Source of the DNA: an uncultured Verrucomicrobiales bacterium
GTDB lineage: Bacteria; Verrucomicrobiota; Verrucomicrobiia; Verrucomicrobiales; DEV007
NCBI GenBank assembly: GCA_937891465.1
Contig: CALAHF010000084.1
Location: 1-34,415 of the forward strand
Direction of reading: 5' to 3'
Length of the DNA stretch: 34,415 nucleotides
The notes beneath the pieces are model-generated. The model made no database searches. It saw only the letters and a list, made by a program, of their open reading frames with translations, and was not told the DNA's origin. This document shows, one piece after another, positions 3,888 through 28,697 of the stretch; within the stretch, counting starts at the first letter, position 1; each line of letters opens with the position of its first letter. Both the position numbers and the translations under genes were made by a program.

Positions 3888-5393
3888 TCAAATCTCCGGA
3901 ATTGGATCATTCGGTTTGATAACCTCGCCTTGCCAGGTCACGGTTCCGTCTTCATCCAAAGTCAGAATCCGGTGCGCGCTTTTCGGCGCGGGCTTCTTAT
4001 TCACACTTGGGATGTGCTTCCGATGCTCCGCGATTACCGCGTCAAACGCCCCGCGATCATTTCCGGGAGCGATTAAATTCGTCCACTCGTTGGGATCTTT
4101 CACCATGTCGTAGAGCTCTTCCGAACCGTCTGCGTAAGTGATGTAACGCCATTTTTCCGACCGAACTCCATGGTTGTCGTGATTGTGAGTCGTCACCGCA
4201 AAACGCTCTCGAGCTGCCGAAGCATCCTTCAACTGCGGCATCAGCGACAGCCCTTCCAAATCATCACGCTTCGGTAATCTGCACAGATCAATCAGGGTCG
4301 GATACATATCCAAAAGCTCCGCAGGTCTTGCGCACATTTGGTTTGGCGTCACGCCAGGTCCGGCAAAAACCAGCGGGACTCGTGTTCCGTCGTCCCACAG
4401 TGTGTTTTTTCCAGTGATCGCTTTTTCGCCGATGTGCCAACCGTGGTCTGACCACAATACAATGATCGTGTTATCCGCTTTGCCACTTGCCTCAAGCGCA
4501 TCAAGCACCCGCTTCAGCTGGGCATCAACAAACGTCGTGCAGGCCAAATACGAACGCGTCAAATTCATCCACTCATTCGAGTCTTCCAAAAACTTCAGGC
4601 GAGGCTCCGGCAACTTCCAGTGCGTATACCACGAAAAGCGCGGCGTATCATCGCGGTCCCCTCGCTGAATCAACGGCAGCTTTGTCTCGGATTCAGGATG
4701 CATATCAAACCACTTTTGGGTCGCGTAACACGGCACGTGCGGCAGAAAAAATCCGCACGCGAGGAAGAACGGTTTGTCCTCCGGCATATTTTCAAGCTGA
4801 TCAACCGCCCACGAAGCGCATTTGTAATCGCCTTTATCCTCGTCTTTATGCGGAAACACTCCCCAGTCCACCAACCGATGTGGTTGCGGCGTATTCACCA
4901 TTTTTTCCTTCGGAAACGGCTTCCCGCTCGCTCCAGGTCCAACAACATCCCACTCTTTGATTTTTGAACCGTTTCCTTTTGGTCCGACTTTTCCGATGCT
5001 CCGGCCGCTGGCTCCGTGATAAATTTTTCCAGTGTAAAAAGTGCGGTAGCCGTTCGCCATGAAATGCTGCGGAAGCGACACCGCATCTTTCACTTCCTCG
5101 ACATCACGAAAAAATGGAGCCAATCCGTAAATCCCCGTTGTCGAAGGGCGCTTGCTGATCATCAAACTCGAGCGCGATGAATTGCATAGCGGCGAATTGC
5201 AGTGCGCATTCGTGAAAGCAGTCCCGCGTTTTGCAAGGGCATCAATGTTCGGAGTCAGCGAATTTGGATGCCCGCCGAGATGGCCGATCCAATCATTCTG
5301 GTCATCAATCGCGATGAACAAAACATTTGGTTTATCCGCCGAAAAGAGCGCGGTTGAAACGAAGAGAGAAAAAAGAACAAAAAGCGTTTTCAC
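3888..5393 (-). CDS. Secreted sulfatase, iduronate-2-sulfatase-like (S1 family)
   Basis: This enzyme should hydrolyse sulfate esters, probably of a sulfated polysaccharide, outside the cytoplasm. A signal peptide (MKTLFVLFSLFVSTALFSA) is followed by PNVLFIAIDDQND, with the metal-binding Asp pair at residues 30-31. The active-site block is CNSSRSSLMISKRPSTTGIY, with Cys70 as the residue to be converted to formylglycine and Arg74. LWSDHGWHIGEK near residue 320 is also present. The Cys-x-Ser-x-Arg form departs slightly from the usual Cys-x-Pro/Ala-x-Arg. Length (501) is normal. Converting Cys to formylglycine needs a maturase not encoded in the window. The GTG start at 5391-5393 lies inside a copy of the dispersed palindrome, and there is no alternative in-frame start that keeps the signal peptide. 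Confidence 0.93.
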   Translation of the reverse strand: MKTLFVLFSLFVSTALFSADKPNVLFIAIDDQNDWIGHLGGHPNSLTPNIDALAKRGTAFTNAHCNSPLCNSSRSSLMISKRPSTTGIYGLAPFFRDVEEVKDAVSLPQHFMANGYRTFYTGKIYHGASGRSIGKVGPKGNGSKIKEWDVVGPGASGKPFPKEKMVNTPQPHRLVDWGVFPHKDEDKGDYKCASWAVDQLENMPEDKPFFLACGFFLPHVPCYATQKWFDMHPESETKLPLIQRGDRDDTPRFSWYTHWKLPEPRLKFLEDSNEWMNLTRSYLACTTFVDAQLKRVLDALEASGKADNTIIVLWSDHGWHIGEKAITGKNTLWDDGTRVPLVFAGPGVTPNQMCARPAELLDMYPTLIDLCRLPKRDDLEGLSLMPQLKDASAARERFAVTTHNHDNHGVRSEKWRYITYADGSEELYDMVKDPNEWTNLIAPGNDRGAFDAVIAEHRKHIPSVNKKPAPKSAHRILTLDEDGTVTWQGEVIKPNDPIPEI

Positions 5394-8981: not shown

Positions 8982-10379
8982 TTATAGAAACGGATCGCCT
9001 TTTTCTTTCCGCCACTCATCCAATTGCTTTTCTAAATTAGCCCGTCGCTCCGCGTGCGCGGGATCGTCCGCGAGATTTTTCAACTCGAACCGATCAGCAT
9101 TGAGGTCAAAAAGCTGCCAGTGATCGATCTTGGGATAACGAATCAATTTCCATCCGTCGGCGGAACGAATCATGCGCTGCGTATCGGTGAAGTAGCCAAA
9201 GGTCGTTTCGTTGTGCTCTGATTTTTCACCGTGCAAAACGGGAGCAAAACTTTTCGCAGTGACGGTTGCTGGAATTTTTGCACCCGCAATTTCGCAAGTC
9301 GTGGGGTACAAATCGCGAAGATAAATCTGCGCATCGGTTTTTGAGCCAGCTTCAATTCCCGGCCCGGCAGCAATGAACGGGACGTTGATGGTGTGCTCGT
9401 ATTGATTCTGCTTCCCGCGCAATCCGTGACTTCCGCAAGCCATTCCATGATCAGCGGTGAAAACGATGAGCGTGTTCTCGAGCTGTTCCGTTTTTTCTAA
9501 CATCGCAATAATTCGACCAATCTGCGCATCCATATCGTCGATGACGGAATAATAAACGCGGAGCAAATCACGAACCGCTTCTTCAGTTCGCGGCCAACTC
9601 ATCAACGCTTCGTCGCGGCCGCCGTAGTTGCCGTGATTAAACGGATGATCAGGCGCATAATCTTTTGGCAGCGGGATTTCGGCGGTTTTGTATTTTCCCT
9701 CCAAGCCCGGCGGAACAAAAAGCGGATCGTGCGGCGCGGTGAAATTCACGTGACAAAACCACGGCTTCTCCGGCTTCCGCTCTATCAATGAAATCGCTGC
9801 GTTGGCAAATTTCTCGCTGATATCCGGAGTGACACCGACGCCTTCTTCGGGATATTTTATTTTGCCAGTCGCGTCTTGGAAAATCCAACCGCGGTAGCCT
9901 GTGATCGGAAAATTCTTCCAATCGCGCTGGCCTTCCTTCCAAAATTTCGAACCACCTCCTGAAAAAAGTCCCGCGACATCCGTGGAACCTCGCGTCGTTG
10001 GGCGACCTGCAGTGTGCCATTTTCCGACATACCACGTTTCGTAACCTGCGGTTTGCAACGCGTCACCCCAACAAATGAGATCAGGCTTAATCTTCACCCC
10101 GCGTATTCCGGTGATGCCATTTTCCCAGCCGTGCATGCCCGTCAGAATTTCGGCGCGGCTGACCACGCAAATCGGATTCGAACACGTCGCGCGAGTGAAC
10201 GTCATTCCGCGAGCGACGAGCTTATCGAGATTAGGCGTTTCAATCGCGGGATTTCCCAATGCAGCAATGCAATCCGGCCGCATGTCATCTGCGAGGAGAA
10301 ATAAGATGTTCGGCGGGTTCTCAGCACGACACGGAAGCAGAGTGAGAAAAAACAGGACAGGCAAAATTCGAAAGCACAT
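8982..10379 (-). CDS. Secreted sulfatase (S1 family) with CVVSR active site
   Basis: The 465-residue protein has a signal peptide (MCFRILPVLFFLTLLPCRA), then PPNILFLLADDMRPD with the metal-binding Asp pair. The catalytic block is CVVSRAEILTG, with Cys71 as the formylglycine precursor and Arg75. Further along are HVNFTAPHDP, FTADHGMACGSHGLRGK and a C-terminal WQLFDLNADRFELKNLADDP, which is typical of choline-sulfatase/arylsulfatase-like secreted enzymes. The Val at the third motif position, where Pro or Ala is usual, is unusual. The cysteine before the signal cleavage site follows Pro, so a lipoprotein is unlikely. It is divergent from the ThuA-like gene 97 bases away. It probably acts on sulfated polysaccharide or a small sulfate ester. 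Confidence 0.93.
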   Translation of the reverse strand: MCFRILPVLFFLTLLPCRAENPPNILFLLADDMRPDCIAALGNPAIETPNLDKLVARGMTFTRATCSNPICVVSRAEILTGMHGWENGITGIRGVKIKPDLICWGDALQTAGYETWYVGKWHTAGRPTTRGSTDVAGLFSGGGSKFWKEGQRDWKNFPITGYRGWIFQDATGKIKYPEEGVGVTPDISEKFANAAISLIERKPEKPWFCHVNFTAPHDPLFVPPGLEGKYKTAEIPLPKDYAPDHPFNHGNYGGRDEALMSWPRTEEAVRDLLRVYYSVIDDMDAQIGRIIAMLEKTEQLENTLIVFTADHGMACGSHGLRGKQNQYEHTINVPFIAAGPGIEAGSKTDAQIYLRDLYPTTCEIAGAKIPATVTAKSFAPVLHGEKSEHNETTFGYFTDTQRMIRSADGWKLIRYPKIDHWQLFDLNADRFELKNLADDPAHAERRANLEKQLDEWRKEKGDPFL

Positions 10380-10476
10380 TTGCCAGACTAGGCAGAATTC
10401 CCCTTCGATTTACAGATCAAACCTCCCACGTCTTCGTCATTGCATTTCAGCTCAAAATTCGTCAGGTTTCCTCTTC

Positions 10477-11538
10477 ATGAAAAAACTCTTCACATTGTTC
10501 ACCCTTCTCGTGTGTTCGATCGCATCGGCCGATCATCATGCGGGGAAAGTTTTGAAGCTCGCCGGAAAAGAAGGTCCCGGAAAAGGGAAGAAAATCGTTC
10601 TCGTCGCGGGGGATGAGGAGTATCGCTCCGAAGAGTCAATGCCGATGCTGGGCAAGATTCTCTCACAAAAACATGGTTTCGACTGTGTTGTGGTTTTCTC
10701 GTGGGACAAATCTGGCAAATATATCGATCCAAATAATCAGGAAGGCCTCATCGGACTCTCCGAACTCGACGACGCGGATTTGATGATCATCGGAACGCGT
10801 TTCCGCAAGCCAAACGACAAAGAGGCGGCACACCTCACGACCTTTATGAATGCTGGAAAACCAGTGATTGGAATTCGCACAGCGACTCACGCTTTCAACG
10901 GAGGTCAAAAATTTGGCGACTCTGAAACGGCGATCGGGTTTGGTCAGTGGGGCCGCAAAGTTCTCGGTGAGCAATGGGTGAGCCATCACGGACGCCACAA
11001 GGTTCAAGGCGCTCGCAGCGTTGTTGAAGCTGACAACACAACAAACAACATCCTTCGCGGAGTTGGTGAAATTTTTGCTCCATCGGACGTTTATGGTGTG
11101 AAGCACCTGACTGAAGAGGACACTATTTTGCTTCGCGCAACGGTTACTGAAACGCTTGAGCCGGATTCAGCCGATATCGAAGGCGAGAAGAACAATCCTG
11201 CACAAGCTTTTGCCTGGCTGCACGAATACACCGGTCCGAATGGTACCGCGAAAGGCATGTCGTTCTGCACAACTGGCGGAGCTTCGGTTGATTTGATCGA
11301 TCCAGATTTGCGGCGTCTTCTTGTCAACGCAGCGTATTCGCTGACCGGCCTCGAAGTTAGGGAAGAAGCCGATGTTGATTACGTCGATCCGTTTTACCCG
11401 AGCTTTTACGGTTTTATTAAAGATGCCGCTTGGTGGAAAGATCTCGATTTGCAGACCGAAGAATTTGGTCTCGGACAATCCACAAATCTCCCCGATCCAA
11501 AAGGTAGCCCCGAGTGGAATCACGAAGACAATCCGTAA
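10477..11538 (+). CDS. Secreted ThuA-like (trehalose-utilisation domain) protein
   Basis: The start is ATG 10477, giving 353 residues with a clear signal peptide (MKKLFTLFTLLVCSIASA, then DHH). The frame remains open upstream but that part has no signal peptide and overlaps the divergent sulfatase. The mature part contains KKIVLVAGDEEYRSEESM, DDADLMIIGTRFR, GKPVIGIRTATHAF and WVSHHGRHKV, which fit the glutamine-amidotransferase-like ThuA fold. ThuA-like proteins are frequent in sugar catabolism loci of Planctomycetota and Verrucomicrobiota, and some are implicated in keto-sugar metabolism. The role here is not known. Together with the two sulfatases it suggests polysaccharide breakdown in the periplasm. 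Confidence 0.85.
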   Translation: MKKLFTLFTLLVCSIASADHHAGKVLKLAGKEGPGKGKKIVLVAGDEEYRSEESMPMLGKILSQKHGFDCVVVFSWDKSGKYIDPNNQEGLIGLSELDDADLMIIGTRFRKPNDKEAAHLTTFMNAGKPVIGIRTATHAFNGGQKFGDSETAIGFGQWGRKVLGEQWVSHHGRHKVQGARSVVEADNTTNNILRGVGEIFAPSDVYGVKHLTEEDTILLRATVTETLEPDSADIEGEKNNPAQAFAWLHEYTGPNGTAKGMSFCTTGGASVDLIDPDLRRLLVNAAYSLTGLEVREEADVDYVDPFYPSFYGFIKDAAWWKDLDLQTEEFGLGQSTNLPDPKGSPEWNHEDNP

Positions 11539-27266: not shown

Positions 27267-28697
27267 ATGTTCCGTTCTTTAGCCAGTTCCATCATCACGC
27301 TCGTCGCGGTGCTTTTGTTCGCATTTACGATGCTGTTCGTCTTTTCCGGCAGCGCTGGGGTGAAATTTCAACGAAATGCGCTGGTTGGTGATGTCCCAAC
27401 AGCCACCGTGGTAAAAGACTATCTCGCTGAACAGAAAGCGAAGGCAGAACCTGTCGACAACGGCTTTACCCGAGAAATGACGGACGAACCCGCTGATACC
27501 GAACCAGAAGGTGGTGGCGATCGGGTGGTGTTGTGGGTCAGTCTTCCCGGCTTCCGGACCGACTACGTAGACAAAGCTGAGGCCCCGTTCTTGCAGCAAA
27601 TGGTGAGCGAAGGCGCCAGCACAGACAAGATGAAGCCGAATTTCCCGTGTCTCACCGCACCGGCTCACGCGACGTTGGCAACAGGAACGACGGTCGACAC
27701 TCACGGCATTCCAATGGATAAATTTCGCATTGAGGACGGCTCGGTCGTCGAAGCCGACGGGCCGCATCTGACGGCGGAGCCAATCTGGACAACGGCCACT
27801 CGCCAAGGAGTTCGGGTGCTGGTTCACGATTGGCCGACATCATTCACCCAACCGGCTGAAAATGCGGCGGCTTATTCCAACGCAAGCTACAACAAAGATT
27901 CAACGGATCAGGAGCGACTCGACGCGCTTTACAAAGCGTGGAGCGAGGACAAAGACGAAAACAAACTGCGTCTCGTCATGTGCAAGCTGGATGGAATCAA
28001 TACGGGGGCACAAGTAAATGGCCCGCGAACAGATGAAGCTTATGCAGAGGTCGGTAAGACAGATAAAGTGCTCAAAGGCTTTATCGATAAAGTGAAGGAA
28101 AACTGGGCAACGCTCGCGAAACCCAATGCTGAACTCGTCGTCCTCGTAACGACCGATCACGGAATGGTTGCAACCGAAAAAAATATCAATTTGGGCAAAT
28201 TGCTTGGCCCTGATATGCTGAAGAATATCGATTTTGTCGCCCATGACGCGATCGGCCAGTTGTATTTCAAAGACCTTCCCGACAGCGCCGGTGAAGTGAA
28301 ATTGTTCGAAGACAAATTCGACAATGCGGTGAGCAAAATGATCAACTTCCGCACGTTCAGACCTGAAGATGTCCCCGCGAACTGGAAGTTCAACATCCCG
28401 GGCCGAACCGGTGATCGAATTCTCGTATTGAAATCGGGCTTCGCGTTCACTGACTTCGAAGCAGAAGAGCCTGTTTTTATTCCCAGTGAAGGCCCCAATC
28501 TTTTCGGCTGCTACGGCTTCCCTGCTGAAGACGCCCTTCGAATGGCTGGACGCTGCATCATTTGGGGTTACCCGAATCAGCCGAGCACCCGTGACATGGG
28601 CGAAATCGACCAAACCGTTTTTCACTCCAGTGTTTGTAAACTACTCGACATCGAACCTTCAGAGAAGGCCTCGACAACCATGATTTCGGTCGACTAA
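27267..28697 (+). CDS. NPP/alkaline-phosphatase-fold protein with missing metal ligands
   Basis: A membrane anchor (IITLVAVLLFAFTMLFVFSGS) precedes a type I phosphodiesterase/NPP domain. The nucleophile region KPNFPCLTAPAHATLATG has Thr130 and DTHGIPMD follows, while VTTDHGM (Asp297, His298) and LDGINTGA (Asp242) are recognisable. However, the first metal Asp of the usual ISxDGFR is Pro94 (SLPGFR), the His normally four residues after Asp242 is Thr246, and the His of the usual GTHGY is Tyr416 (GCYGF). Half of the usual two-metal site is therefore gone, so it may be inactive, bind one metal, or have changed chemistry. It lies 10 bases before thiD. Confidence 0.8.
   Translation: MFRSLASSIITLVAVLLFAFTMLFVFSGSAGVKFQRNALVGDVPTATVVKDYLAEQKAKAEPVDNGFTREMTDEPADTEPEGGGDRVVLWVSLPGFRTDYVDKAEAPFLQQMVSEGASTDKMKPNFPCLTAPAHATLATGTTVDTHGIPMDKFRIEDGSVVEADGPHLTAEPIWTTATRQGVRVLVHDWPTSFTQPAENAAAYSNASYNKDSTDQERLDALYKAWSEDKDENKLRLVMCKLDGINTGAQVNGPRTDEAYAEVGKTDKVLKGFIDKVKENWATLAKPNAELVVLVTTDHGMVATEKNINLGKLLGPDMLKNIDFVAHDAIGQLYFKDLPDSAGEVKLFEDKFDNAVSKMINFRTFRPEDVPANWKFNIPGRTGDRILVLKSGFAFTDFEAEEPVFIPSEGPNLFGCYGFPAEDALRMAGRCIIWGYPNQPSTRDMGEIDQTVFHSSVCKLLDIEPSEKASTTMISVD

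Follow-up and report, generated by a model that had tools for sequence, protein, structure and literature searches.

A probable pseudo-phosphodiesterase of the NPP fold, membrane-anchored and conserved within one Verrucomicrobiales family

Introduction

The NPP fold and pseudoenzymes as a phenomenon are both already known. In the account of NPP3 given in PMC6052110, zinc is held by D168, T206, D326, H330, D373, H374 and H483; the same account describes the six Asp/His ligands plus the Thr as strictly conserved in NPP and presents N227 as an Asn that contacts the zinc-bound phosphate. A partition into two sites, Thr-Asp-Asp-His and Asp-His-His, is reported for PorX, a type IX secretion regulator whose PglZ domain belongs to the same superfamily and works in a regulatory setting (PMC10951265). 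Bacterial pseudo-orthocaspases, as described in PMC6426788, are a bacterial class with catalytic residues replaced, but they belong to a protease family and offer an analogy only. Among the papers listed from the open literature searched, no report of a bacterial NPP pseudoenzyme was found, which is weak evidence of absence.

Here we describe a gene from the window, that is, the whole stretch of 34,415 nucleotides of an uncultured Verrucomicrobiales bacterium that was analysed. Its product resembles the NPP/ENPP enzymes (XaNPP, 2gsn/7n1s; ENPP1-7) in the predicted fold of residues 84-476, the order of motifs, the Thr nucleophile and the Asp-His pair. Unlike them, it has Asp54, Asp210, His214, His363 (XaNPP numbering) and the phosphate-contacting Asn replaced, and it carries a membrane-anchor helix with a juxtamembrane motif of its own. 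It also differs from PorX of F. johnsoniae, which is reported to remain an active phosphodiesterase with its two zinc sites preserved (PMC10951265).

Results

Gene, domain layout and predicted structure

The reading frame is intact, as the initial annotation had stated, and the encoded protein is laid out as follows:

27267..28697, + strand: coding sequence of P0001, the degenerate NPP-fold protein (476 aa), ATG start, frame intact
27267..27350, + strand: membrane-anchor helix at the N-terminus, residues 1-28 (hydropathy peak of 2.70 over residues 9-27; conserved in the family)
27348..27392, + strand: juxtamembrane motif GS....F.R.....D, residues 28-42 (conserved in the clade)
27393..27515, + strand: variable linker, residues 43-83 (model confidence below 50 at residues 65-73)
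27516..28694, + strand: alkaline-phosphatase-superfamily (NPP) domain, residues 84-476 (Pfam, predicted structure)

In a Pfam profile search PF01663 matched residues 88-396 with an E-value of 6.1e-42 (144.9 bits against a curated cut-off of 23), and structure prediction further bears out the NPP fold that the initial annotation had proposed. A first model, made with 16 sequences, had a pLDDT of 78.8 and was weak at residues 397-424; the second, made with 70 sequences, reached a pLDDT of 93.4 and a pTM of 0.82. Superposed on Xanthomonas NPP (7n1s_A), the second model gave a Z-score of 43.8 and an rmsd of 2.5 over 366 aligned residues, and it has the fold of the alkaline phosphatase superfamily. 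By sequence, the nearest solved relatives are Xanthomonas NPP and the ENPPs. Six viral structures matched at an E-value of 0.001 or better, all of them remote superfamily members, and no NCBIfam family matched the window protein at an E-value of 0.01.

The sulfatase profile PF00884 scored 12.1 bits, below its cut-off of 25. At the nucleophile position sulfatases carry the Cys or Ser for formylglycine, and the window protein has Thr130 there; on these two grounds membership of the sulfatases was rejected.

The juxtamembrane motif is kept in nearly all clade members (G28 and S29 in 38/40 each, R36 in 39/40, D42 in 40/40). A search of the window's own genome with residues 1-60 at an E-value of 10 returned only the gene itself, with no second copy, and an anchor module common to a partner protein was rejected on this result. 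From the N-termini of intact relatives, which judged by eye are of signal-peptide, lipoprotein-like or single-helix type, we infer that the domain of the window protein is exported and faces the periplasm.

Two long antisense open frames overlie the gene (window 27279-27827 and 27900-28625, - strand, 182 and 241 aa). Antisense frames overlie some orthologues too, and coding composition is the probable cause.

Metal ligands of the window protein

We give ligands in XaNPP numbering, which we take to be D54, T90, D210, H214, D257, H258 and H363. The start of the 7n1s_A structure alignment fits these numbers: judged by the alignment ends only, the structure alignments begin at model residue 84 and XaNPP residue 44, the same offset of 40 as in the pairs Pro94/D54 and Thr130/T90. 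The corresponding positions of the window protein are:

27546..27548, + strand: Pro94 at metal Asp54 (alignment with XaNPP and homologues)
27654..27656, + strand: Thr130 at the nucleophile position, T90 (alignment with XaNPP and homologues)
27717..27719, + strand: Asp151 in place of the Asn that contacts phosphate, N227 in NPP3 (alignment)
27999..28001, + strand: Asn245 at metal Asp210 (alignment with XaNPP and intact homologues)
28011..28013, + strand: Gln249 at metal His214 (alignment with XaNPP and intact homologues)
28155..28160, + strand: Asp297-His298, the retained ligand pair D257-H258 (alignment)
28512..28514, + strand: Tyr416 in place of the late His ligand, H363 (homologue alignment, on which this assignment rests, as the pairwise alignment with XaNPP ends at residue 304)

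Two of the six Asp/His ligands and the Thr remain and four ligands are replaced, so that the protein does not carry the ligand set of a two-zinc catalytic NPP. The Asp-His-His site keeps none of its three residues (Asn245, Gln249, Tyr416), and the other site keeps three of four, Thr130 among them, with Pro94 marking the loss. Asn245 taken alone is uninformative, because 7 of the 22 canonical homologues also carry Asn at this position. The Asn that contacts the phosphate is missing as well: position 151 is Asn in 32/32 intact homologues, and it is Asp in the window protein and in 36/40 clade members.

These alignments bore out part of the initial annotation: Pro94 replaces the first metal Asp, the late His has become Tyr416, and Thr130, Asp297 and His298 are retained. 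It had misplaced the second metal Asp at Asp242, three residues before the true position Asn245, and had named Thr246 as the replacement of the following His, for which both the XaNPP and the intact-homologue alignments give Gln249. Its tally of three lost ligands, two from one site and one from the other, is corrected to four: the entire Asp/His/His site plus one. Judged by these residues, the window protein very probably does not perform two-zinc catalysis; most of the residues that would hold zinc are lost, and therefore a substrate is probably no longer cut.

Degeneracy across the family

The window's own family, f1, is represented by 36 genomes in a 57-genome set, the window's own included. 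An orthologue was found in 17 of these 36, spread over seven genera, the nearest being 62% identical to the window protein. In a wider set of 386 genomes from the order, a match at an E-value of 1e-20 was seen in 43 that belong to f1. One of them (G148) encodes a protein with an intact site, L091. The other 42 are degenerate: 41 are the tabulated homologues, and the last is G026, in which two contig ends each carry part of the gene (L026, L015). G026 stands outside the 41 tabulated rows, and both of its halves are degenerate too. Two genomes of genus g2, G185 and G198 (77% and 69% complete), had no match among the genomes listed, and these absences speak against the gene being simply present or absent in a genus as a whole.

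The initial annotation had called for a search for orthologues with the same replacements, and such degenerate orthologues make up the tabulated family. The first Asp (D54 position) is kept in 0/40 tabulated homologues, each of which has Pro, Ala, Ser, Thr or Arg instead; the second Asp (D210 position) in 0/41; the first His (H214 position) in 2/41 (L011, L012); and the late His (H363 position) in 0/40. At the Asp/His/His site, Leu, Met, Phe and Tyr account for most of the replacements. Thr is present at 130 in 34/40, Asp297 in 39/40 and His298 in 40/40. The loss of ligands exceeds chance, the same positions being degenerate across the tabulated orthologues.

The nearest homologues outside the clade have intact sites. 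They are L155 and L095-L103 in other Verrucomicrobiota families and L091 in the same family, and they score 209-362 bits with the family profile versus 92-164 for the canonical NPPs found. Unlike the window protein, they keep the ligand set wherever it is covered (L103 is without the late part); L155, the best-scoring relative outside the family at 362 bits, retains all ligands. The ten intact relatives and 22 canonical rows all have Asp at 94, Thr, His249, Asp297 and His298, and the late His is present in every row with a letter there (9/9 and 22/22, respectively). Searches at E-values of 1e-20 and 1e-50 covered 387 genomes of the phylum and 384 of the class, samples that overlap each other and the order set. 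All matches outside the family that were read, a set without seven phylum matches that received no locus, were intact, with the exception of Asn in seven canonical rows.

Two further observations concern other members. In family f9, L115, L117, L118, L120, L121, L122 and L123 look like canonical NPPs in which Asn replaces the second metal Asp and the other ligands are kept. In the genus g2 orthologues L026/L015 and L079-L089 the match is split near residue 230 within one open frame and an insertion is therefore placed there, Ala/Pro-rich where read (G026).

Own genome and genomic neighbourhood

PF01663 matches 87 places in the window's own genome (G000) at an E-value of 0.001, many of them presumably sulfatases like those at window 3888-5393 and 8982-10379. 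The best of these matches (L124; G000:C204:51979-53082, - strand; 192.7 bits) appears degenerate by eye: the region of the first Asp reads Ser-Pro, the first His has become Gln, and SEYG replaces DHG. In NCBIfam its only matches were sub-threshold, and it is possibly a second pseudo-member. The sulfatase frame at 8982-10379 (- strand) overlaps by about 300 bases with a frame at 10075-11538 (+ strand) that has a sub-threshold ThuA match, so at least one of the two starts probably lies too far upstream.

The 16 other genes of the window gave no tblastn match (E-value 1e-4) in 19 regions around homologues, each of 7-19 kb and some ended by contig ends. All-against-all frame clustering of 20 regions, the window included, which in some regions took in antisense frames over the gene, revealed recurrent neighbours such as c2 and c3, each in 5/20 regions. 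Each of these clusters adjoins the gene in one genus only (c2: L039 and L040; c3: L047-L049), and therefore we name no partner; neither method found a neighbour conserved across genera beside the gene in the 20 regions.

Phylogeny and selection

In a quick tree from which the seven catalytic columns had been removed, 39 degenerate rows formed one clade (SH-aLRT 99). This clade sits inside a wider one (100) with nine intact relatives, apart from the 22 canonical rows; the intact relatives were unresolved as a group (support 50), and the tree carried long-branch warnings. The tree leaves out the partial rows L077, L090 and L103 as well as L155, which was found later, and nine loci repeating an already included gene had been dropped from the alignment. 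The likeliest history would be a single loss from an intact state in the ancestor of the family's orthologues. Within the clade parsimony counts 6, 12, 9 and 12 changes at positions 94, 245, 249 and 416, and one at 297.

Over the domain, dN/dS (Nei-Gojobori type) was 0.024-0.093 in 12 of 14 degenerate pairs, ratios that are rough because dS exceeded 1 in nine of the 12 computed pairs; two sequences were each used in two pairs. For two canonical pairs the ratios were 0.050 and 0.081. In two of the 14 pairs dS was saturated, including the window's nearest pair (window versus L003). These ratios indicate that the gene is maintained. Thus, the orthologues form a conserved clade in which the same positions are replaced under purifying selection.

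Eight of the 47 columns conserved in the 32 intact homologues are lost in the clade: 94, 131, 151, 155, 240, 249, 300 and 416. The lost columns include five of eight known site positions (which in the NPP literature bind metal, act as the nucleophile, stack on the base or contact the phosphate) versus three of the 39 others (Fisher test, P-value 0.0017, the eight having been chosen after the list was seen).

Residues gained in the clade

With cut-offs of 93% in the clade and no more than 20% among the ten intact relatives, the newly fixed residues comprise R254, K305, K335, R384, K389, R425, P419, D352, E354 and others. Position 240 is Tyr in 32/32 intact rows, and in the clade it is Arg in 34/41, Lys in 3/41 and Ser in 4/41. 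The intact-site protein L155 has K389 and P419, L091 has R384 and P419, and the K335 position is Lys in 10/22 canonical rows; some gained residues predate the loss or are not unique to the clade. The clade-fixed basic residues, together with Lys/Arg240 and Asp151, suggest binding of an anion or a partner at the old pocket.

Discussion

We consider it probable that the window protein is a conserved membrane-anchored pseudo-phosphodiesterase, derived from an active ancestor and kept for a non-catalytic job. The ancestral state would have been an exported NPP-type two-zinc enzyme whose catalytic metal centre was lost, most likely once, in an ancestor from which the orthologues of a single Verrucomicrobiales family descend. 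The folded domain would afterwards have been retained for the non-catalytic job, with the face of the old pocket now perhaps binding an anionic ligand or a protein partner. We infer a present role in binding or as a scaffold with about even confidence. The initial annotation had also argued for a pseudoenzyme over random decay; family-wide degeneracy, a single clade beside intact-site relatives and purifying selection strengthen that view, and its ligand list held only in part. Its point that the nucleophile is intact is true of Thr130 in the window protein and weak for the family, and the altered chemistry it offered as a further option is conceivable, with little to support it.

A gene decaying on its way to loss would account for the free variation at four ligand positions and for the two genus g2 genomes without a match, but the matched frames in the 386 genomes of the order have no stops inside, dN/dS is similar to that of intact enzymes, 61 of 476 residues are invariant in 16 orthologues and, among the 36 family genomes, 17 of the 18 in its seven genera have the gene. 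This reading is already contradicted, and we regard it as barely credible. An active two-metal enzyme that draws its ligands from other residues would fit the Thr130, Asp297 and His298 kept in the window protein. It is nonetheless highly improbable, given that three new ligands for the Asp/His/His site were not found: D352 and E354 are the only Asp, Glu or His newly fixed in the domain under the cut-offs above, D151 falls short of fixation, and hydrophobic or aromatic side chains mostly replace the ligands of this site.

The strongest result against a plainly dead site is the retained Asp297-His298 pair, combined with a residue 130 that is always Thr, Asp, Glu or His. A residual one-metal site could persist around the near-invariant Asp297 and His298 and the restricted residue 130. 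Such a remodelled mononuclear site, in which these three and perhaps Asp151 would hold one divalent metal in a sensor or a hydrolase of altered chemistry, fits several observations. In the 6/40 members without Thr130 the residue is invariably Asp, Glu or His, each replacement requires at least two base changes from a Thr codon, and the tree places at least four events; L009, the sole member of 40 without Asp297 (Pro there), carries Asp130; and position 151 has shifted from Asn to Asp. The lack of Asp at the D54 position in all 40 would leave at most three or four ligands, however, a mononuclear hydrolase would have to work without Thr in up to four lineages, and the three members with His130 carry Asn, not Asp, at 151. 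We hold this reading to be unlikely. A two-zinc enzyme rebuilt as a single-metal or metal-free membrane receptor, with one site erased, the other surviving as [T/D/E/H]130-Asp297-His298 with Asp151, and the fixed Arg and Lys residues binding an anion, seems to us a speculative and rather doubtful idea.

A profile search assigns the gene to the phosphodiesterases, and PMC6052110 describes the NPP ligands as strictly conserved. The intact relatives beside the degenerate clade provide a clean series for testing the change from a metalloenzyme to a binding protein, and the same series allows a test of whether one half of a two-metal site can persist once the other is gone.
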